Shown here in pieces: positions 10,352 to 19,352 of a DNA stretch of 30,943 bases. Every line of letters begins with the position of its first letter. Position 1 is the first letter of the stretch. The stretch spans positions 1 through 30,943 of the forward strand of contig NZ_JNYE01000094.1 of the NCBI RefSeq assembly GCF_000717185.1, written 5' to 3'. A program made the position numbers and the translations under genes. Source of the stretch: Kitasatospora phosalacinea. Lineage in GTDB: Bacteria; Actinomycetota; Actinomycetes; Streptomycetales; Streptomycetaceae. The notes beneath the pieces are model-generated. The model worked only from the letters and a program-made list of their open reading frames with translations, searched no databases and was not told the DNA's origin.

Positions 10352-10394
10352 CACCGGGCCGGGCCCCGCCGGTTGTGGGCGGGCCCGGCCGGTG
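10352..10394 (+). terminator. Hairpin after the lipoprotein/membrane-protein operon
   Basis: Arms at 10352-10370 and 10378-10394 pair with two bulged bases around a 7-nt loop (GGTTGTG). No U-tract. It separates the upstream pair from the catalase gene. Confidence 0.5.
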
Positions 10395-10479
10395 TTCGAG
10401 TGGAGGGCAGTCGCGGCGGTCGACCCTCGCCGCCGCGCGGCTACGGCGCCCCGGCGGGTGCCCGAGGAGGATTCCCCCG

Positions 10480-11931
10480 ATGTCCCAGCACGTTCCCTCC
10501 ACCACGAACAGCGCGGGCGTCCCGGTCGAGAGCGACGAGCACTCGCTGACCGCGGGCCCGGTCGGCCCGGTCCTGCTGCACGACCACTACCTGATCGAGA
10601 AGATGGCCCAGTTCAACCGGGAGCGGGTGCCGGAGCGGGTCGTGCACGCGAAGGGCAGCGGCGCGTACGGCTCCTTCGAGGTGACCGAGGACGTCAGCCG
10701 GTTCACCGTCGCGGACCTGTTCCAGCCGGGGAAGCGGTGCGAGGTGCTGGCCCGGTTCTCCACCGTGGCGGGCGAGATGGGGTCGCCGGACACCTGGCGC
10801 GACCCGCGCGGCTTCGCGCTGAAGTTCTACACCGAGCAGGGCAACTACGACCTGGTCGGCAACAACACGCCGGTGTTCTTCGTCCGGGACCCGATGAAGT
10901 TCCAGGACTTCATCCGCTCGCAGAAGCGCCGCCCAGACAACGGGCTGCGCGACCACGACATGCAGTGGGACTTCTGGACGCTCTCGCCCGAGTCGGCGCA
11001 CCAGGTGACCTGGCTGATGGGCGACCGCGGCATCCCGCGGACCTGGCGGCACATGGACGGCTTCTCCTCGCACACCTACCAGTGGGTGAACGCGGCCGGG
11101 GAGCGGTTCTGGGTGAAGTACCACTTCCGGACCGACCAGGGCAACGAGTTCCTCACCCAGGCGGAGGCGGACCGGCTGGCGGGCGCGGACGGCGACCACC
11201 ACCGGCGCGACCTGTTCGAGTCGATCGAGGGCGGCGCGCACCCGTCCTGGACGCTGCACGTGCAGGTGATGCCGTTCGACGAGGCGCGGGAGTACCGGTT
11301 CAACCCGTTCGACCTGACGAAGGTGTGGCCGCACGGCGACTACCCGCTGATCGAGGTCGGCCGGCTGACCCTGAACCGCAACCCGGAGGACCACTTCGTC
11401 CACATCGAGCAGGCCGCGTTCGAGCCGTCCAACCTGGTGCCGGGCATCGGGGTGTCGCCGGACAAGATGCTGCTCGGCCGGATCTTCTCCTACCCGGACA
11501 CCCACCGGTACCGGATCGGGCCGAACTACGACCAGCTGCCGCCGAACCGGGCGCACGTGCCGGTGCACTCGTACAGCAAGGACGGGCCGATGCGCTTCGA
11601 CGCGGCCCGCACCGCCCGGCCGTACGCGCCGAACTCGTACGGCGGCCCGGCGGCCGACCCGTCGCCGTGGGGCGGGCAGCCGGGGTGGGACGTGGCGGGG
11701 CGGATGGTGCGCGAGGCGTACCCGCTGCACCGGGAGGACGACGACTGGGGACAGGCCGGGACGCTGGTGCGGGAGGTGCTGGACGACGCGGCGCGCGAGC
11801 GGCTGGTGGCCAACATCGCCGGGCACCTGCTGGACGGGGTCTCCGCGCCGGTGCTGGAGCGCGCCCTGCAGTACTGGCGCAACGTCGACCGGTCGCTGGG
11901 CGACCGGGTGGCGGCCGCCGTGGCCCGCTGA
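10480..11931 (+). CDS. Monofunctional heme catalase
   Basis: A 483-residue small-subunit catalase that converts H2O2 to water and oxygen in the cytoplasm. Active-site His56 lies in [12 protein letters not shown], the distal Asn in GNNTPVFF (128/129), and the proximal heme ligand Tyr338 in [14 protein letters not shown]. Length and motifs match the clade 3 enzymes, so it should be fully active. ATG 10480 has GAGGAGG 9 nt upstream; the frame is open further 5' but without signals. It has its own hairpin terminators on both sides, so it is a single-gene unit. I see no operator of a Fur/CatR type directly upstream. Confidence 0.96.
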
Positions 11932-11942
11932 CGCCCTTCCCT

Positions 11943-11983
11943 GCCGCCGCCCGTCCGGAGCGCCGTTCCGGGCGGGCGGCGGC
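11943..11983 (+). terminator. Catalase terminator hairpin
   Basis: A 17-bp stem (11943-11959 with 11967-11983, one G-U pair) around a 7-nt loop, starting 11 nt after the catalase stop and ending just before the -35 of the next operon. Confidence 0.75.
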
Positions 11984-11988
11984 GCGCG

Positions 11989-12017
11989 TTGACAAGTCCC
12001 CCCGCCGGGCCGATCCT
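11989..12017 (+). promoter_or_regulatory. Promoter of the phosphotransferase-ACAD operon
   Basis: A perfect -35 TTGACA (11989-11994), 17-nt spacer and GATCCT -10 (12012-12017). The operator begins on the last two bases of the -10, a layout suited to repression. The same promoter arrangement recurs at 17826-17854 on the minus strand. Confidence 0.75.
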
Positions 12018-12034
12018 AAGCAAGCGCTTAGTCA
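12016..12034 (+). promoter_or_regulatory. TetR-type operator, copy 1
   Basis: CTAAGCAAGCGCTTAG (inverted repeat CTAAGC-AAGC-GCTTAG) followed by TCA. The same 19 bp occur on the minus strand at 17827-17809, beside a divergent TetR gene. It overlaps the -10 and the likely transcription start. Confidence 0.8.
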
Positions 12035-12063
12035 GCACGCCCCGACCCCTGCGAGGTGCCCCG

Positions 12064-13083
12064 ATGACCACCGCCGCTCCGCCCGGACTGGACCTGGAGA
12101 GGCTGCGCGCCCACCTGGACGCCGCCCTGCCGGCCCCCGTCGCGGGCCCGCTGACGGCCCGGCTGTTCGAGGGCGGCCGGTCGAACCTGACCTACCTGGT
12201 CGAGGACGGCGCCTCCCGCTGGGTGCTGCGCCGCCCGCCGCTCGGGCACGTGCTGGCCACCGCGCACGACATGGGCCGCGAGCACCGGGTGCTGGGCGCC
12301 CTGGCGGGCACCGCCGTGCCGGTCCCGCGGCCGGTGCTGCTGGTCGAGGACACCGACGTGATCGGCGCGCCGTTCTACCTGATGGAGTACGTCCCGGGCA
12401 CCGCCCACCGGGACGCGAAGGCGCTGGCCGCGCTCGGCGAGCAGCGGGTGCACGCCCTGGGCGGGCGCCTGGTGGAGACCCTGGTCGCCCTGCACGCCCT
12501 GGACCCGGACGCGGTCGGCCTGGCCGGCTTCGGCCGCCCCGAGGGCTTCCTGGAGCGCCAACTGCGCCGCTGGGGAAAGCAGTTGGACGCCTCGCGGAGC
12601 CGCGAGGTGCCGGGCGCGGACGAGCTGCACCGCCGCCTCGCCGACACCCTGCCGCCCTCCCCCGCGCCCGCCCTGGTGCACGGCGACTACCGGCTGGACA
12701 ACGTCCTGGTCGACGCCGAGGACCGGATCGCCGCCGTCCTGGACTGGGAGATGTCCACCGTCGGCGACCCGCTCACCGACCTGGGCCTGCTGGTGATGTA
12801 CACCGAACTCGCCCGCCGCTTCGACGGGTTGCTCCCCGGCGCGGCCCTCGCCCCCGGCTTCCCGTCCACCGCCGAGATCGTCCGCCACTACGCGCAGGCG
12901 TCCGGCCGGGACGTCTCCGGCCTCGGCTGGTACGTCGCCTTCGCCTCCTTCAAGCTGGCGGTCGTCCTGGAGGGCATCCACTACCGCTACACCCGGGGCG
13001 GCACCGTCGGCGCGGGCTTCGACCGGGTCGGCGAACTCGTGCCGCTGTTCGTCGAGTTCGGCACCGGATCGCTGGAGGGCTGA
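12064..13083 (+). CDS. APH-family phosphotransferase, ACAD10/11- or LvaA-like
   Basis: A 339-residue aminoglycoside-phosphotransferase-fold kinase. The catalytic loop is HGDYRLDN (206-213, Asp208) and the Mg-binding motif is LDWEMSTVGDPLTDLG (Asp227). This HGDYRxDN...LDWE pattern with an acyl-CoA dehydrogenase next door is that of the kinase part of ACAD10/11 and of LvaA in the Pseudomonas levulinate pathway. LvaA-type enzymes phosphorylate the hydroxyl of 4-hydroxyacyl-CoA esters; antibiotic resistance is unlikely. ATG 12064 lies about 40 nt after the predicted transcript start and has GCGAGG upstream. The next gene starts 3 nt after the stop, so one operon under the TetR operator is near certain. 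The exact substrate is unknown. Confidence 0.88.
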   Translation: MTTAAPPGLDLERLRAHLDAALPAPVAGPLTARLFEGGRSNLTYLVEDGASRWVLRRPPLGHVLATAHDMGREHRVLGALAGTAVPVPRPVLLVEDTDVIGAPFYLMEYVPGTAHRDAKALAALGEQRVHALGGRLVETLVALHALDPDAVGLAGFGRPEGFLERQLRRWGKQLDASRSREVPGADELHRRLADTLPPSPAPALVHGDYRLDNVLVDAEDRIAAVLDWEMSTVGDPLTDLGLLVMYTELARRFDGLLPGAALAPGFPSTAEIVRHYAQASGRDVSGLGWYVAFASFKLAVVLEGIHYRYTRGGTVGAGFDRVGELVPLFVEFGTGSLEG

Positions 13084-13086
13084 CCC

Positions 13087-14298
13087 ATGGACTTCTCCCA
13101 CGACGCCCGGACCACCGAGCTCCTCGGCCAACTCGCCGCCTTCATGGACGAGTTCGTCTACCCCGCCGAACCGGTGCTGGCCGCCCAGCTCGCCGACCCG
13201 GCCCGCGAGCCGTGGTCGGTCCCGCCGGTGGTCGGCGAGTTGCGGGCCGCCGCGAAGGCCCGCGGCCTGTGGAACCTCTTCTTCCCCGGCGAGCTCGGCG
13301 CCGGGCTGACCAACCTCCAGTACGCGCCGCTGGCCGAACTCACCGGCCGCTCCGTCCTGTTGGCGCCGCCCGCGCTCAACTGCGCGGCGCCCGACACCGG
13401 CAACATGGAACTGCTCGCCCAGTTCGGCACCCCCGAGCAGCGCGAGCGCTGGCTGCGGCCGCTGCTGGACGGCGAGATCCGCTCCGCCTTCGCGATGACC
13501 GAGCCGGACGTCGCCTCCTCGGACGCCACCAACATCACCACCCGGATCGAGCGCGACGGCGACGCGTACGTGGTCAACGGCCGCAAGTGGTACATCACCG
13601 GGGCGATGAACCCGGACTGCAAGGTCCTGATCGTGATGGGCAAGACCGACCCGGCCGCCGAGCCCCACCGCCAGCAGTCGATGGTCCTCGTCCCGCGCGA
13701 CACCCCGGGCGTGCGGGTGCTGCGCGGCATGCGGGTGTTCGGCTACCCGGACGAGGACCACGGCGGGCACGCCGAGATCCTCTTCGAGGACGTCCGCGTC
13801 CCCGTCGCGAACCTGGTCGGCGAGGAGGGCGGCGGCTTCGCCATCGCCCAGGCCCGCCTCGGCCCCGGCCGGATCCACCACTGCATGCGGGCCCTCGGCA
13901 TCGCCGAGCGCGCCCTCGAACTCACCTGCCGCCGGGTCAGCTCCCGGGTGGCGTTCGGCCGTCCGCTCGCCGACCAGGGCGTCGTCCAGGACTGGATCGC
14001 CGAGGCGAGGGTCCGGATCGAGCAGGCCCGGCTGCTGGTCCTGAAGACCGCCTGGCTGATGGACACCGTCGGCAACCGCGGCGCCCACACCGAGATCCAG
14101 GCCATCAAGATCGCCGTCCCGTCCACCGTCGAGTGGATCCTCGACAAGGCCGTCCAGGCCCACGGCGCCGCCGGGGTCAGCCAGGACACCCCCCTCGCCC
14201 AACTCTGGGCCGGCAACCGCACCCTGCGCCTCGCCGACGGCCCCGACGAGGTCCACCGGCGCTCGCTCGCCCGCCGCGAGCTGCGCAAGTACCGCTGA
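13087..14298 (+). CDS. Acyl-CoA dehydrogenase, ACAD10/11- or LvaC-like
   Basis: A 403-residue FAD enzyme of the acyl-CoA dehydrogenase superfamily. Visible are the FAD/substrate motif FAMTEPDVASSDATN (135-149), KWYITG (167-172), the C-terminal helix stretch GPGRIHHCMRALG (259-271) and VQAHGAAGVSQDTPLAQLWAGNRTLRL. The DGPDEVH segment (384-390) puts Asp where many family members have a catalytic Glu, a mark of the ACAD10/11 group. In the LvaA/LvaC system this partner removes the phosphate from 4-phosphoacyl-CoA to give an enoyl-CoA for beta-oxidation. That reaction is inferred here from motif and pairing with the upstream kinase gene. A strong hairpin follows. Confidence 0.92.
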   Translation: MDFSHDARTTELLGQLAAFMDEFVYPAEPVLAAQLADPAREPWSVPPVVGELRAAAKARGLWNLFFPGELGAGLTNLQYAPLAELTGRSVLLAPPALNCAAPDTGNMELLAQFGTPEQRERWLRPLLDGEIRSAFAMTEPDVASSDATNITTRIERDGDAYVVNGRKWYITGAMNPDCKVLIVMGKTDPAAEPHRQQSMVLVPRDTPGVRVLRGMRVFGYPDEDHGGHAEILFEDVRVPVANLVGEEGGGFAIAQARLGPGRIHHCMRALGIAERALELTCRRVSSRVAFGRPLADQGVVQDWIAEARVRIEQARLLVLKTAWLMDTVGNRGAHTEIQAIKIAVPSTVEWILDKAVQAHGAAGVSQDTPLAQLWAGNRTLRLADGPDEVHRRSLARRELRKYR

Positions 14299-14307
14299 GG
14301 GCCGCGG

Positions 14308-14345
14308 GCCCGGGGCGCCGGTGCCGCAACACCGGTGCCCCGGGC
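14308..14345 (+). terminator. Terminator of the phosphotransferase-ACAD operon
   Basis: A 16-bp stem (14308-14323 with 14330-14345, one G-U pair) and a 6-nt CCGCAA loop, 10 nt after the stop. Confidence 0.75.
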
Positions 14346-14435
14346 GGGCGGTGGAGGCGGGCCGTGGGGGCAGGCCGTGGGGGGCGGCGGCGAAAACCGC
14401 TGTCCGATCACCGGACGCGGTGGTAGACATCCGGC

Positions 14436-15233
14436 GTGGAGAAGAACCCTCAGTTCCCCGACCTGCTCCGACTGATCGACGAACGGTCGACCGCCTTCCG
14501 CGCCGCGGTCGCCGCCGCGCCCGACCTGGACGCACGGGTGCCGACCTGCCCCGAGTGGACGCTGTTCGACCTGGCGAAGCACCTGGGCGGGGGCGACCGC
14601 TTCTGGGCCGCCATCGTCGGCGCCGGGCCCGCCGACGGCCCCCCGGCCGAGGCCGTCGCCGCGCGCGCCGCCCTGGAACCGCCGCGGGAGCGCGAGGCCC
14701 TGCTGGCCTGGCTGGCCGCGTCGACGCAGCTCCTGCTGGGCGCCCTGCACGGGGCGGGCCCGGACGCCGCCTGCTGGACGTGGTGGAGCGCCCTGCAGTC
14801 GCCGCGGTCCTCCGGCGCAGTCGCCCGGCACCGGGTGCAGGAGACCTCGGTGCACACCTACGACGCCCAGCTCGCCGGGGGCGCCCCGCAGCCGCTGCCG
14901 GTCGGGGTCGCCCTCGACGGCGTCGAGGAGTTCCTGTTCACCTGCGTCGCGTCGCCCAGCGCCTGGCCGCACGAGCCCGCGACCTTCGAGTTCCACGCCG
15001 CCGAGGGCCGCTCCTGGCTCCTCACGGTCGACGGCGACGGCGCACGCTCCACCCGCATCCCCGCGCCCACCGACACGGGCGCGGACGGCCCGGGCGCGGC
15101 CGGTGCGTCCGTCCACGGCCCGGCCGGCGAGCTGGTCCTCTACCTGTACGACCGCGTCCCGGCCGAGTCCCTGCGCATCGGGGGAGACGCGGGGCTGCTC
15201 GACCTGCTCCGCGCCTGGGAGCCGGAGGAGTAG
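14436..15233 (+). CDS. Maleylpyruvate isomerase-family mycothiol-dependent protein
   Basis: A 265-residue protein of the actinobacterial MDMPI/DinB-like group. The N-terminal metal-site pattern is present: CPEWTLFDLAKHLGGGDRFW (His49) and RHRVQETSVHTYDAQLA (Glu136, His140, Asp143). A smaller alpha/beta C-terminal domain follows. Family members use mycothiol as cofactor for isomerisation or transfer, but most have no known substrate. GTG 14436 is chosen because TAGACA (14424-14429) lies 6 nt upstream, which suggests a leaderless transcript; no Shine-Dalgarno is present. It sits between two units that share a TetR operator but has its own start region, so co-function is uncertain. Confidence 0.85.
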   Translation: MEKNPQFPDLLRLIDERSTAFRAAVAAAPDLDARVPTCPEWTLFDLAKHLGGGDRFWAAIVGAGPADGPPAEAVAARAALEPPREREALLAWLAASTQLLLGALHGAGPDAACWTWWSALQSPRSSGAVARHRVQETSVHTYDAQLAGGAPQPLPVGVALDGVEEFLFTCVASPSAWPHEPATFEFHAAEGRSWLLTVDGDGARSTRIPAPTDTGADGPGAAGASVHGPAGELVLYLYDRVPAESLRIGGDAGLLDLLRAWEPEE

Positions 15234-15249
15234 GACGCGACGGATCCGG

Positions 15250-15265
15250 CCCCGGGCGCCCGGGG
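15250..15265. terminator. Palindrome between convergent genes
   Basis: A perfect 16-bp palindrome (CCCCGGGCGCCCGGGG) in the 40-nt gap between the convergent MDMPI and quinone-reductase-like genes. It could serve both strands. Confidence 0.4.
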
Positions 15266-15273
15266 AGGACCGC

Positions 15274-16230
15274 TCAGGGGACGATCGCGAGGCGGCCGGT
15301 GGTGGTGCCGGCCGCGAGGTCGTGGACGGCGGTGGCGGCCGACTCCAGGGGGAGGCGGGCGGAGACCAGGGGGCGGGGGGCGAGGGCGGTGAGGGCCGCG
15401 TGGCAGGCGCGGACGGCGGCGGGGTCGCGGGTGGCGTAGAGGCCCCAGTGCAGGCCGAGCAGGGAGTAGTTCTTCACCAGGGCGTGGCCGAGCGGCGGGG
15501 CGGGGATCTCGCCGGAGGCGAAGCCGACCAGGACGATCCGGCCCTCGAAGGCGACGCACCTGGTGGAGCCGGTGAAGGCGGGGCCGCCGACCGGGTCGAA
15601 GACCACGTCGGCGCCGCGGCCGCCGGTGGCCTCCTTGACGGCGGTGACGAAGTCCCCGGCACGGCGGTCGACCACCACGTCCGCGCCCAACTCCCGTGCG
15701 ACGGAGGCCTTCTCCGGTCCGCCGACCACGGCGATGACGAACGCCCCGGCGGCCTTGCCGAGTTGGACGGCGGCGCTGCCGACGCCTCCGGCCGCGGCGT
15801 GCACCAGGAGGGTCTCGCCGCGGGCGAGGCGGGCGCGCCGGTGCAGGGCGAACCAGGCCGTCTGGTAGGCGATGTGGAAGCCGGCGGCTTCGGCGTCGTC
15901 CAGGTGGCCGGGGGCGGGCAGGGCGGTGGCGGCGTTCATCAGGGCGTGCTCGGCGAACGCCCCGGCGGGCAGCTCCGCGGTGCCGATCAGGCGTTGACCG
16001 GCCCGCGGCCCCTCGGTGACCTCGCCGCAGAGTTCCACGCCGGGGGTGAACGGCAGCGGCGGGCGGACCTGGTACTGCCCGGCGGCCATCAGCGCGTCGG
16101 GGAAGTTGACGGCCGCGGCCCTTACCCGGACCAGGAGTTGGCCCGGTCCGGGCACGGGGAGGTCGGCGTCCGGGACGAGTTCCATCACGTCCAGGGGTGC
16201 GCCGGTGCGGGTGATCCGCCAGGCTCTCAT
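15274..16230 (-). CDS. Zinc-less MDR NAD(P)H:quinone oxidoreductase-like enzyme
   Basis: A 318-residue medium-chain dehydrogenase/reductase. The N-terminal GroES-like part lacks the Cys/His zinc ligands of alcohol dehydrogenases. The Rossmann part shows LVHAAAGGVGSAAVQLGKAAGA (about 142-163), the quinone oxidoreductase/enoyl-reductase signature. It likely reduces or oxidises a carbonyl or enoyl group with NADP(H). ATG 16230 overlaps the stop of the upstream SDR gene (ATGA at 16230-16227), so the two are translationally coupled. It is the last gene of the minus-strand operon that starts at the TetR-controlled promoter near 17826-17854. Substrate unknown; an acyl-CoA intermediate is plausible from context. 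Confidence 0.88.
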   Translation of the reverse strand: MRAWRITRTGAPLDVMELVPDADLPVPGPGQLLVRVRAAAVNFPDALMAAGQYQVRPPLPFTPGVELCGEVTEGPRAGQRLIGTAELPAGAFAEHALMNAATALPAPGHLDDAEAAGFHIAYQTAWFALHRRARLARGETLLVHAAAGGVGSAAVQLGKAAGAFVIAVVGGPEKASVARELGADVVVDRRAGDFVTAVKEATGGRGADVVFDPVGGPAFTGSTRCVAFEGRIVLVGFASGEIPAPPLGHALVKNYSLLGLHWGLYATRDPAAVRACHAALTALAPRPLVSARLPLESAATAVHDLAAGTTTGRLAIVP

Positions 16231-17027
16231 CGGGCCTCGATCTCCTGCTGGAGGCGGTTCATGCCGCGCAGCCAGCGGTCGGGGGTGGTGGCGCGGGCCG
16301 CGTACTGCCCGGCGGTCTCGGGGTGCGGGAGGATCAGGAACTCGTCGGCGGCCATCCCGCGCAGGGCGGCGGCCGCGGCCTCGGCGGGCTCGATCGCCGT
16401 GGGGGCGAGCAGGACCTGCCCGTGGGTGCCGGTGCCGTCGAGCATCCGGGTGCGCACGCCCTGCGGGCACAGGGCGTGCACCTTCAGGCCGCGGTGCCGG
16501 TAGGTGGCGGAGAGCCACTCGGCGTACGCGAGGGCGCCGTGCTTGGTGACGGCGTACGGGGCGGAGCCGAGCATGGTGAGCAGCCCGGCGGCGGAGACGG
16601 TGGCCAGGTAGCGGCCGGTGCCGCGCTCCAGCCAGTCGGGCAGCAGCAGGCGGGTGGCCCGCACGTGGGCGAGCACGTTGACCTGCCAGGCCAGTTCCCA
16701 GGCCTCGGGCCCGGCGTCGGGGCCGCCGGTGGTGGCGACGCCCGCGTTGGCGCAGTAGAGGTCGATCGCGCCGAGGCGGTCGCGGGCGGCGCCGATCAGG
16801 GCGGCGACGCCGTCCTCGCCCGCGGCGTCGCCGGGGACGGCGTGCCCGCCGGTCTCGGCGGCGACGGCGCGGGCCGCGTCGGCGTCGAGGTCGTTGACCA
16901 CCACCCGGGCGCCGGCGGCGGCCAGGGCGCGGGCGAGGGCGGCCCCGATGCCGCGCCCGGCGCCGGTGACGACGGCCCCGGCCCCGGCGAGGTCGGCCCC
17001 GCCGGGGGCGGGCCGGGGCCCGCTCAC
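16227..17027 (-). CDS. Short-chain dehydrogenase/reductase (SDR), middle gene
   Basis: A 266-residue classical SDR. The cofactor motif is TGAGRGIG (21-28), the structural motif CANAG is near 92-96, and the catalytic Ser145, Tyr158 and Lys162 are all present in SAAGLLTMLGSAPYAVTK. It should oxidise or reduce a hydroxyl/keto group with NAD(P)(H). GTG 17027 overlaps the upstream SDR stop (GTGA), and its own stop overlaps the following gene, so all three genes are coupled. The C-terminal region is longer than in the first SDR and lacks the usual DGG end. Substrate unknown. Confidence 0.88.
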   Translation of the reverse strand: MSGPRPAPGGADLAGAGAVVTGAGRGIGAALARALAAAGARVVVNDLDADAARAVAAETGGHAVPGDAAGEDGVAALIGAARDRLGAIDLYCANAGVATTGGPDAGPEAWELAWQVNVLAHVRATRLLLPDWLERGTGRYLATVSAAGLLTMLGSAPYAVTKHGALAYAEWLSATYRHRGLKVHALCPQGVRTRMLDGTGTHGQVLLAPTAIEPAEAAAAALRGMAADEFLILPHPETAGQYAARATTPDRWLRGMNRLQQEIEAR

Positions 17028-17779
17028 AGGCCGCCGCCGAGGGTGACGCCGCCGTCGACGACCAGGGTCTGGCCGGTGATCCAGGCGGCGTCCTCGGAGA
17101 GCAGGAAGGCGACGGCCCCGGCGATGTCCTCGGGGAGGCCGAGGCGGCCGAGGGGGTAGGCGCGGGCGACCTTCTCCTCGCGGCCCTCGTAGAGCGCTTC
17201 GGCGAACTTGGTCTTGACCACGGCGGGGGCGACGGCGTTGACCCGGACGGCGGGGCCGAGTTCGGTGGCGAGTTCCATGGTGAGGCGGATCAGCGCGGCC
17301 TTGGAGACGCCGTACATGCCGATGCCGCTGGAGGACCGGATGCCCGCGATGGAGGCGACGTTGACGACGGCGCCGCCGTGCTCGCCCATCCAGGCGGCGT
17401 GGGCGCGGCGGGTCCAGGCCAGCGGGGCGAGCACGTTGACGGCGAGGATCTTGGCGGCGGCGGCCGGGTCGGTGTCCAGGACCGGGCCGTAGACGGGGTT
17501 GATGCCGGTGTTGTTGACCAGCAGGTCGAGGCGGCCGTAGGTCTCCATGACGCGGGCGACGGCCTCCTCCTGGTGCGCGGCGTCGTCGGACTTCCCGGCG
17601 ACGGCGATCGCGTGCCCGGGCCCGCCGAGCTCCTTCGCGGCCTGCTCCAGGGTCTCCGCGGTGCGGGCGGTGAGGCAGACCTTCGCCCCGCGCCGGACCA
17701 GCTCCCGGGCGATGCCGAACCCGATGCCCCGGCTCGCGCCGGTGACCACGGCCACCTTGCCCTCGAACGACACTGCCAT
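17024..17779 (-). CDS. Short-chain dehydrogenase/reductase (SDR), first gene of the TetR-controlled operon
   Basis: A 251-residue classical SDR of FabG-like length. Motifs: TGASRGIG (13-20), VNNTG (88-92; a Thr replaces the usual Ala), Ser143, Tyr156 and Lys160, and the C-terminal TGQTLVVDGG. It is likely a 3-hydroxyacyl-CoA or alcohol dehydrogenase. ATG 17779 lies about 41 nt after the predicted start of a transcript from the promoter at 17854-17826. The same operator controls the kinase-ACAD operon, so the two units probably act in one pathway. Confidence 0.9.
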   Translation of the reverse strand: MAVSFEGKVAVVTGASRGIGFGIARELVRRGAKVCLTARTAETLEQAAKELGGPGHAIAVAGKSDDAAHQEEAVARVMETYGRLDLLVNNTGINPVYGPVLDTDPAAAAKILAVNVLAPLAWTRRAHAAWMGEHGGAVVNVASIAGIRSSSGIGMYGVSKAALIRLTMELATELGPAVRVNAVAPAVVKTKFAEALYEGREEKVARAYPLGRLGLPEDIAGAVAFLLSEDAAWITGQTLVVDGGVTLGGGL

Positions 17780-17808
17780 CTCGTACCTCGCACCTCTCCG
17801 AACCGATG

Positions 17809-17827
17809 TGACTAAGCGCTTGCTTAG
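17809..17827 (-). promoter_or_regulatory. TetR-type operator, copy 2
   Basis: Read on the minus strand, the same 19 bp as at 12016-12034: CTAAGCAAGCGCTTAG then TCA. It lies between the SDR operon and the divergent TetR gene, so the regulator probably also controls itself. Confidence 0.82.
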
Positions 17828-17854
17828 CATCTTGGCGGCGGGCGACACTGTCAA
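17826..17854 (-). promoter_or_regulatory. Promoter of the SDR-SDR-MDR operon
   Basis: On the minus strand: TTGACA (17854-17849), a 17-nt spacer and GATGCT (17831-17826). The spacing and operator overlap are the same as at 11989-12017. Confidence 0.75.
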
Positions 17855-17902
17855 CAGCCCGACCCGCCGGGGCGGGCCGGAGCCGTCTGGGAGGATTGCC
17901 CC

Positions 17903-18529
17903 ATGACCGACCCAGCGACCGCCGAACTCTGGCCCGGGGAGCGCACCGAGGCCGCCCGGCGGCTGCTGCTGGCCGCCGTGGACTCCTTCGCCCGCCGCGG
18001 CTACCACGCCACCACCACCCGGGACATCGCCACCGCCGCCGGGATGAGCCCGGCCGCGCTGTACATCCACTACCCGTCGAAGGCGGCACTGCTCGCCGAG
18101 ATCTCCCGCACCGGCCACCGGGCCACCCTGGAGCTGGTCGAGCGCGCCGAGGCCGCCGGGTCGGACCCGGTGGAGCGGATGCGCGCCCTCGCGGAGTCCT
18201 TCACCGCCTGGCACGCCCGCGGCCACACCGTCGGCCGGATCGTCAACCACGAGCTGCACGCCCTGCCCGAGGAGGACTTCGCGGCCGTCGCCGACCTGCG
18301 GATCCGGATCGAGGAGACGGTGCTGCGGATCATCGCGGACGGGGTGGCGCAGGGCCTGTTCCGCGTCCCCGACCAGCGCACCGCGGCCCGCGCCGTCACC
18401 TCGCTCGGCATCGACGTCTCGCGCTGGTACACCGAGCGCAGCAGCGAGTCCCCGGAGGAGCTGGGGCGGCGGTACGGGCAGCTGGTGCTGCGGATGCTGG
18501 GCGCACCGGCCGGGCGGGTCGGCGACTGA
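17903..18529 (+). CDS. TetR-family transcriptional repressor
   Basis: A 208-residue regulator. The N-terminal helix-turn-helix is clear (TTTRDIATAAGMSPAALYIHYPSKAALL, about 37-64). The C-terminal ligand domain is variable, as usual. ATG 17903 has GGGAGGA about 8 nt upstream. It diverges from the SDR operon, and the 19-bp operator lies in the 123-nt gap. The same operator 5.8 kb away fronts the kinase-ACAD operon. It is therefore the likely repressor of both. The ligand may be an acyl-CoA, as with other catabolic TetR proteins. The operator core is one mismatch from the mycobacterial KstR2 pattern AnCAAGnnCTTGnT, so a CoA-thioester ligand is plausible but unproven. Confidence 0.92.
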   Translation: MTDPATAELWPGERTEAARRLLLAAVDSFARRGYHATTTRDIATAAGMSPAALYIHYPSKAALLAEISRTGHRATLELVERAEAAGSDPVERMRALAESFTAWHARGHTVGRIVNHELHALPEEDFAAVADLRIRIEETVLRIIADGVAQGLFRVPDQRTAARAVTSLGIDVSRWYTERSSESPEELGRRYGQLVLRMLGAPAGRVGD

Positions 18530-18566: not shown

Positions 18567-18585
18567 TTAGGTTAGCCTTACCTAA
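18567..18585 (+). promoter_or_regulatory. IdeR/DmdR iron box
   Basis: TTAGGTTAGCCTTACCTAA matches the actinobacterial iron-box consensus (TTAGGTTAGGCTAACCTAA) at 17 of 19 positions. It ends 17 nt before the start codon of the DUF2470 gene and just before its ribosome site. Confidence 0.88.
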
Positions 18586-18602: not shown

Positions 18603-19352
18603 GTGCTGCCCCAGCCCGCCCGCCGCCCGTCCGCCGCCGAACGCGCCCGCACCCTGCTGGAGCACGCCTCCTCCACGGTCCTGGACGTCCACGGCGCCGA
18701 CCTCACCGCCCGCCCCGGCCTGCCCCCGCAGGTCGCCTGCGCGCTGCGGCCGGACGGCTCGGTGGCGGTGCTGGTCAGCCGCGAGTCGGCCCTGCACCGG
18801 ATCACCGCCCTCGCCCGCACCCCGCTCACCGCCGAACTCGACTGCGTGGACGTCGCCCCCGTCGCCCTCCCGCACCGCGTCCGCGGCCGCCTCCTGGTCC
18901 GCGGGCAGCTCACCCGCTCCCCCGGCGAGAGCGCCGCCGCGCTGTTCCCCCGCCACGGCCACCACGGCGACGTCCTGCTCCGGCTGGAGCCCGAGCACCT
19001 CGCCCTGGACGACCTGTGGGGCTCCGAGTGCTGCGTCGACCCCGACGAGACGGCCGCCGCGAGCCCCGACCCCGTCGCCGCCGAGGAGACCGGCCTCCTC
19101 CAGCACCTGGCCGACGCCCACGCCGACCAGCTCCTGCTGCTCGGCACCCGGGCCCTGGACCACCACCGGCCCACCGCCGAGCGCCTGCACGGAGTCCGCC
19201 CGGTCGCCCTCGACCGCCACGGCCTGCGGGTGCGCCTGCTCCTCGGCGACGGCAGCCTGGACGCCCGCTTCGACTTCCACCGCCCCGTCACCCGCCCCGA
19301 CGACCTCCCGGAGGCGATGCACCGCCTCTTCGCCCCGACCCTCACCCCCTGA
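18603..19352 (+). CDS. DUF2470-domain protein under iron control
   Basis: A 249-residue soluble protein. The N-terminal half resembles the split-barrel fold of pyridoxamine-oxidase/HugZ-like proteins (for example PQVACALRPDGSVAVLVSRESALHRITAL). The C-terminal 80 residues read as DUF2470: EETGLLQHLADAHADQLLLLG...GLRVRLLLGDGSLDARFDFHRPV. Related HugZ-type proteins bind or degrade heme, so a part in heme-iron use is a fair guess. GTG 18603 has a very good AAGGAGG 6 nt upstream. An iron box directly upstream says the gene is switched on in iron shortage by relief of DmdR/IdeR repression. No siderophore or heme-uptake gene adjoins in this window. Confidence 0.85.
   Translation: MLPQPARRPSAAERARTLLEHASSTVLDVHGADLTARPGLPPQVACALRPDGSVAVLVSRESALHRITALARTPLTAELDCVDVAPVALPHRVRGRLLVRGQLTRSPGESAAALFPRHGHHGDVLLRLEPEHLALDDLWGSECCVDPDETAAASPDPVAAEETGLLQHLADAHADQLLLLGTRALDHHRPTAERLHGVRPVALDRHGLRVRLLLGDGSLDARFDFHRPVTRPDDLPEAMHRLFAPTLTP

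Follow-up and report, generated by a model that had tools for sequence, protein, structure and literature searches.

What connects two distant operons of Kitasatospora phosalacinea that begin with the same promoter-operator module, one copy of which lies next to a gene for a TetR-family regulator? The stretch of DNA analysed here (30,943 nucleotides; hereafter, the window) makes up the full length of contig C94 in the genome (G000). It carries an operon for a kinase and an acyl-coenzyme A (CoA) dehydrogenase (ACAD) on the forward strand. On the reverse strand is an operon of two short-chain dehydrogenase/reductase (SDR) genes and one medium-chain dehydrogenase/reductase (MDR) gene, from which the TetR gene diverges. 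In the reading that we favour and judge highly likely, this TetR is a predicted acyl-CoA-relieved repressor of 4-hydroxyacyl-CoA catabolism that would control the kinase-ACAD operon, the SDR-SDR-MDR operon and a second MDR gene on another contig (C8).

A promoter-operator module shared by two operons

The two copies of the 46-bp module lie at 11989-12034 (+) and 17854-17809 (-). An earlier note on this DNA had described their -35 element, 17-nucleotide (nt) spacing and 19-bp operator as identical, and alignment confirmed this: the copies match at TTGACA, in the 17-nt spacing, at GAT and over the 19 bp CTAAGCAAGCGCTTAGTCA. Both have the promoter form TTGACA-N17-GATNCT, overlapped by the operator. 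The kinase-ACAD promoter has its -35 TTGACA at 11989-11994 (+) and, 17 nt further on, the -10-like hexamer GATCCT at 12012-12017 (+), with operator 1 (CTAAGCAAGCGCTTAG plus TCA) at 12016-12034 (+). In the SDR promoter, TTGACA occupies 17849-17854 (-), the hexamer GATGCT 17826-17831 (-) and operator 2, the same 19 bp, 17809-17827 (-). Both operators were located through sequence searches of the window, the genome and orthologous loci. Searching the window for CTAAGCAAGCGCTTAG with up to three mismatches returned two places, both of them the modules, and 100 dinucleotide shuffles of the window gave a mean of 0.05 matches (0/100 reached two).

The operator is an imperfect palindrome (CTAAGC-AAGC-GCTTAG). 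Its first two bases are also the final two of the -10-like hexamer, and it extends across the expected transcription start, a position that fits steric repression. The leaders of about 40 nt reported earlier are borne out (to ATG 12064 and ATG 17779) if the hexamers ending at 12017 and 17826 are the -10 elements, the starts being predicted. We compared this anatomy in 26 named loci of the Kitasatospora clade, some of which carry the name Streptomyces or Saccharothrix, and in 20 kinase promoters (every locus whose fetched stretch included the kinase). The operator, with at most one mismatch, is upstream of the SDR in 26/26 loci and upstream of the kinase in 20/20. The SDR promoter retains TTGACA, 17 nt and [CG]AT[GC][CT]T in all 26, and 18 of the 20 kinase promoters have TTGACA, with a spacing of 17 in 11 and 18 in 7. 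Position 2 of the hexamer is A in 20/20 kinase promoters, and the T at position 6 is part of the operator. Most operator columns reach 2.0 bits, and the downstream columns are mostly below 0.5 bits. Some features weigh against the repressor model: the two window hexamers are weak (3/6 to TATAAT), a sigma-70 scan of 11900-18000 calls no promoter, TTGACA is missing in 2/20 kinase promoters, no promoter of tetR itself was identified, and the SDR promoter spacer is also largely conserved, so that conservation is not limited to the operator.

The regulator itself (17903-18529, +) has the domains of its family, a helix-turn-helix TetR_N domain (PF00440) followed by an all-helical TetR_C domain (TetR_C_24, PF17932). 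In sequence it groups with Kitasatospora, its closest counterpart from a named genome being that of K. phosalacinea NBRC 14627 (97% identity). Its AlphaFold model is helical, with a mean per-residue confidence (pLDDT) of 90.3. As the earlier note had it, the gene diverges from the second module; 123 bp separate the coding starts, within the 200-bp limit for a divergent target, and the sole operator in this gap is 75 bp from the tetR start codon. A TetR protein whose gene starts less than 200 bp from a divergent one is, as a rule, the repressor of that neighbour, and all five tested regulators with such spacers acted in this way (PMC3511530). The same source describes AtrA, a Streptomyces TetR that activates its neighbour, and weak -10 hexamers like those of the window could need help from an activator. 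The operator nevertheless covers the hexamer position and the expected start in 46/46 orthologous promoters (44 with TTGACA), the typical placement for steric repression, which makes it very improbable that TetR is an activator, or an activator and repressor combined, instead of a simple repressor. The palindromic operator overlaps the predicted target promoter and is conserved alongside TetR.

We also searched the G000 genome (8.6 Mb, 340 contigs) for the 16-mer with up to three mismatches, together with a backwards control. The 13 places found comprise three exact sites, none at one or two mismatches and 10 at three. The backwards control gave 23 matches, more than the 10 three-mismatch sites, and a wider regulon was not found in this genome. 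Exact copies of the 19-mer are expected about 2e-6 times at the base composition of the window. The genome-wide search that the earlier note had suggested therefore yields one further member, and the random scatter it named as a possible outcome does not hold, since each of the three exact copies lies upstream of kinase, SDR or MDR genes. The third exact operator (C8:7285) is upstream of an MDR oxidoreductase gene, in the opposite orientation to the gene. This MDR belongs to a different subtype (ADH_N_2) from the MDR of the window, and the same gene is at the third site in 9/9 inspected loci of the genus, that of G000 included. Across 70 genomes of the genus, the 19-mer pattern STRAGCAAGCGCTTAGTYA has at least three sites in 32, two in 36, one in one and none in one. 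The two-operon regulon proposed earlier is well supported by comparative evidence as to the control of both operons, and falls short in its count: the predicted regulon has at least three units. TetR very probably controls the kinase-ACAD and SDR operons plus this third unit. In genome G005, the operator occurs twice upstream of the MDR gene (L100:1501-1541), at a distance of 25 bp; the second copy reads CAGAGCAAGCGCTTAG, and the pair perhaps reflects tandem repressor binding.

The regulator and its operator across genomes

Does the operator belong to this TetR? Among the 70 genus genomes, 69 have the TetR (E <= 1e-30) and 69 have the 19-mer pattern; the same genome (G045) lacks both, and the kinase, too, finds no counterpart there at E <= 1e-40. 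At the family level (297 genomes, TetR at E <= 1e-25), the 16-mer STRAGCAAGCGCTTAG is present in 259 of the 275 genomes with TetR and in none of the 22 without it (Fisher p 2e-23, genome kinship ignored). The backwards control of the 16-mer occurs in 0/297. Two of the 22 TetR-less genomes (G148 and G237) were placed there by elimination. The 22 genomes without TetR and motif belong to nine genera (g1, g2, g3, g4, g5, g10, g11, g12 and g15), four of which (g1, g3, g10 and g12) also contain genomes with both. This distribution suggests that the co-absence of TetR and operator probably arose more than once.

The operator also remains close to the regulator in other lineages. We inspected 18-19 kb around TetR at 20 loci from other genera of the family or with a second TetR copy and found a site with up to three mismatches in 19. 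It is less than 200 bp upstream of TetR in 15 of the 20, and another site is 0.5-1.3 kb past the end of the gene in 10. Beyond the family, the alphaproteobacterium Nitratireductor aestuarii encodes a TetR with 44% identity and an identical GMSPAALYIHY stretch. There, GTAAGCAAGCGCTTAG ends 25 bp before the tetR ATG, between tetR and a divergent ACAD gene. SDR and MDR genes are close by; the MDR is 46% identical to the third-site MDR, and the ACAD is 55% identical to the one behind an exact site just past the TetR gene of another family genus (G119). The more distant TetR proteins (27-34% identity) of Bosea, Planomonospora and an Anaerolinea metagenome-assembled genome have no site with up to three mismatches within the 20 kb around them.

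These results bear on the possibility that the operator belongs to another regulator and that the TetR beside copy 2 is a bystander. G000 has 34 matches to TetR at E <= 1e-3, itself included, and relatives of this kind could recognise palindromes like this one. Furthermore, 16 of the 275 family genomes with TetR lack the exact 16-mer (for example, G078, G093, G103 and G154), and one of the 20 inspected loci (L136, a paralogue in G119 with SDR neighbours) has no site; both findings count against the pairing. In two of the 16 (G104 and G122), the TetR matches are near the cut-off; in the 16 genomes, the operator may have drifted. Against a bystander role, the next best paralogue in G000 is far off (E 3.6e-9, 34% identity), site presence tracks TetR over the 297 genomes, and the site stays beside TetR in other genera and in the alphaproteobacterium. 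We therefore judge a bystander TetR to be highly improbable and consider the pairing of this operator with this TetR to be strongly supported by comparative genomics.

Individual genomes add two observations on the pair. G093 has a three-mismatch site in its TetR-MDR gap (L134). Five genomes (G002, G022, G029, G038 and G119) encode a second TetR paralogue, 52-59% identical, and in three of them (G002, G022 and G029) an exact 16-mer is within about 3 kb of it. Two TetR paralogues may share one operator there and cross-talk.

Predicted inducer and pathway

Which signal would release the repressor? A protein search with TetR gave only general TetR names among the best 120 of 6757 matches. The closest fold to the model is 3him, a TetR protein of Rhodococcus sp. 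RHA1, followed by PfmR, KstR2, DarR, AibR and BkaR, with FadR lower. Structure entries for AibR and FadR carry CoA ligands in their titles, and PfmR, KstR2 and BkaR are also acyl-CoA-related regulators. Two points speak against reading a ligand from the fold: the top match is uncharacterised, and the cyclic di-AMP regulator DarR also ranks high, so that the fold does not fix the ligand. Taken together, the near folds and the target genes favour a CoA thioester as the putative inducer.

The enzymes of the first operon point to the pathway. The kinase (12064-13083, +; PF01636) has the aminoglycoside phosphotransferase (APH) fold and is related to the ACAD11 kinase domain and to LvaA. It matches the mouse ACAD11 kinase domain at E 1.4e-50 and keeps the HGD and LDN motifs with the catalytic Asp and Asn, residues that PMC12440821 names as D220 and N225. 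The ACAD (13087-14298, +) is LvaC-like and belongs to the ACAD10/11 class, as judged from its structure matches and catalytic residues. Among solved structures, human and mouse ACAD11 give E values of 5e-132 to 3e-131. The sole other structure at this level is the putative ACAD 4hr3 (3e-132); the remaining ACADs are at 3e-44 or weaker. R626, H634, R637 and the catalytic D753 of mouse ACAD11 align with identical residues in the window ACAD, and these four residues have been tied to the 4-phosphoacyl-CoA reaction (PMC12440821). ACAD10/11 and LvaA/LvaC phosphorylate 4-hydroxyacyl-CoA and convert the product to enoyl-CoA (PMC12440821, PMC11342911). Most likely, the window kinase and ACAD carry out the same conversion, as their alignments with these enzymes suggest.

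Other features leave room for another pathway. SDR A, the first gene of the second operon (17024-17779, -; PF13561/PF00106), scores 316.7 bits against NF005559.1 and so passes the cut-off (215) of this model, whose subfamily is named glucose 1-dehydrogenase. SDR B (16227-17027, -; PF00106) and the window MDR (15274-16230, -; PF00107), a PIG3-like quinone oxidoreductase type, pass none of the subfamily models shown; the MDR scores 204.7 bits against TIGR02824, under the cut-off of 296.8. The subfamily of SDR A weighs against 4-hydroxyacyl-CoA use, as do the best solved relatives of the kinase: 9o56 (entry named aminoglycoside phosphotransferase, 4.5e-72) and 3dxp (entry named putative acyl-CoA dehydrogenase, 1.1e-55) both rank ahead of ACAD11. 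So does the fact that no 4-oxo reductase or acyl-CoA ligase was identified, the search for a ligase having covered the five genes that make up the two operons. The regulator could be correctly assigned and the pathway be the ordinary breakdown of fatty acids or branched-chain acyl-CoAs. In agreement with this, the operator is found elsewhere in the family at genes for MaoC, ACAD, thiolase and AMP ligase, and the SDR and MDR genes have no assignment to 4-hydroxy acids. We hold it to be unlikely, because the ACAD, a member of the ACAD10/11 class, keeps the catalytic Asp and the R..H..R helix and adjoins a matching kinase. Furthermore, ACAD10/11 were inactive on plain acyl-CoAs under the conditions used, with partial activity left possible by the authors (PMC12440821).

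For 4-hydroxyacyl-CoA catabolism, we propose the following mechanism. TetR would bind CTAAGC-AAGC-GCTTAG as a dimer and repress; at both window promoters it would block RNA polymerase, given an operator that begins inside the -10 hexamer and spans the expected start. A CoA thioester of the pathway, presumably a hydroxy- or oxo-acyl-CoA, would release the repressor. The kinase-ACAD operon would then supply the enzymes to phosphorylate the 4-hydroxyl of 4-hydroxyacyl-CoA and eliminate the phosphate, yielding 2-enoyl-CoA for beta-oxidation. Release would also induce the SDR-SDR-MDR operon, whose products would convert the acyl chain between its oxo, hydroxy and enoyl forms, and the second MDR gene on C8. 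Collectively, these enzymes look like a route by which hydroxylated fatty acids enter the usual pathway of fat degradation.

Several neighbouring genes complete the locus. A catalase gene (10375-11931, +; PF00199) is directly upstream of operator 1, and a catalase is near the kinase operon in 7/26 Kitasatospora-clade loci as fetched. Between the two operons, a gene for a mycothiol maleylpyruvate isomerase-like protein (14436-15233, +; PF11716, PF07398) has no operator of its own. Past tetR, TTAGGTTAGCCTTACCTAA (18567-18585) is one to two mismatches from the actinobacterial iron-box consensus and lies a short way upstream of a gene at 18603 that encodes a DUF2470 protein; no such match arises in shuffled sequence. 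This gene is perhaps iron- or haem-related and under a DmdR/IdeR-type regulator, judging from the box.

Evolution of the regulon and comparison with known systems

Outside Kitasatospora, the operator adjoins other genes. We read 20 sites at 19 of 30 loci for their likely target by the position and third-position G+C of open reading frames (ORFs), and checked five representatives by Pfam. The likely targets are ACADs of three types (11 sites), a MaoC dehydratase (5), an AMP-binding ligase (2), a thiolase (1) and TetR itself (1). At one MaoC locus (L168), another long ORF begins on the opposite side of the site. In G091, a single site is followed by maoC and an ACAD gene, and tetR lies beyond these in the same orientation.

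The kinase loci outside the genus differ in this respect. The kinase has a match in 35 of 38 genomes chosen outside the genus, and loci were available for 30. None of the 30 has a site before the kinase (26 are in genomes with TetR, 4 in genomes without); two have a three-mismatch match about 1.2 kb past the other end of the gene, which we take for chance. Kinase and TetR are about 9-28 kb apart in 16 of the 20 genomes with both coordinates. In the tree (48 rows; L028, L035, L086, L087 and L145 of the 53 were left out by a script filter on stops or no match), the SDR-type TetRs of Kitasatospora cluster together (100/97). Because the TetR-operator pair is family-wide and the kinase loci outside the genus are siteless, the kinase operon most simply appears to have been recruited to an old regulator-operator pair in Kitasatospora; its loss elsewhere is a less simple alternative. 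A bolder and rather doubtful possibility is that the pair serves as a switch of acyl-CoA catabolism that can be tuned by lineage and was rewired in Kitasatospora onto a 4-hydroxyacyl-CoA pathway fed by gamma-lactones, with 4-hydroxy- or 4-oxoacyl-CoA as the signal sensed by the cell. If true, the cell could consume gamma-lactones, butyrolactone-type signals included.

The analysis offers a candidate repressor for a regulon of acyl-CoA catabolism and defines its operator of 16-19 bp, the 16-mer being present in 259 of the 297 Streptomycetaceae genomes searched. According to PMC5539140, as of 2017 there was no description of regulatory signals and genes for the catabolism of triacylglycerol and fatty acids in these bacteria. 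The analysis also provides an example of a conserved regulator-operator pair whose target set changes. TetR repressors of acyl-CoA catabolism are a known kind of system; this regulator, its operator and its predicted link to an ACAD10/11-type pathway appear to be new as far as the open-licence literature searched reaches. Among the open-licence PMC papers listed, we found no relevant paper on the operator or its half-sites and no described Streptomyces TetR of this kind, with guessed S. coelicolor locus tags included in the search; either may be described elsewhere. We also considered a link to the lactone-sensing TetR QsdR; the available text of PMC6262395 provides no operator sequence for comparison.

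Among known regulators, the window TetR resembles FadR-type proteins in that its operator adjoins fatty-acid catabolic genes: those for MaoC, ACAD, thiolase and AMP ligase in other genera and the kinase-ACAD pair here. It differs from FadR, PfmR, KstR2 and AibR in sequence (16-33% identity in alignments) and in having targets that vary between lineages. Among known enzymes, mammalian ACAD10/ACAD11 and Pseudomonas putida LvaA/LvaC likewise pair an APH-type kinase with an ACAD and share the catalytic and phosphate-site residues seen here. The window kinase and ACAD are two separate proteins, as are LvaA and LvaC. The lva (levulinate) operon includes the acyl-CoA ligase LvaE, whereas the five genes of the two window operons include no ligase. 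The window pair also differs in being beside an SDR-SDR-MDR operon and is under predicted TetR control. It offers a counterpart of mammalian ACAD10/11 that is bacterial and apparently regulated.

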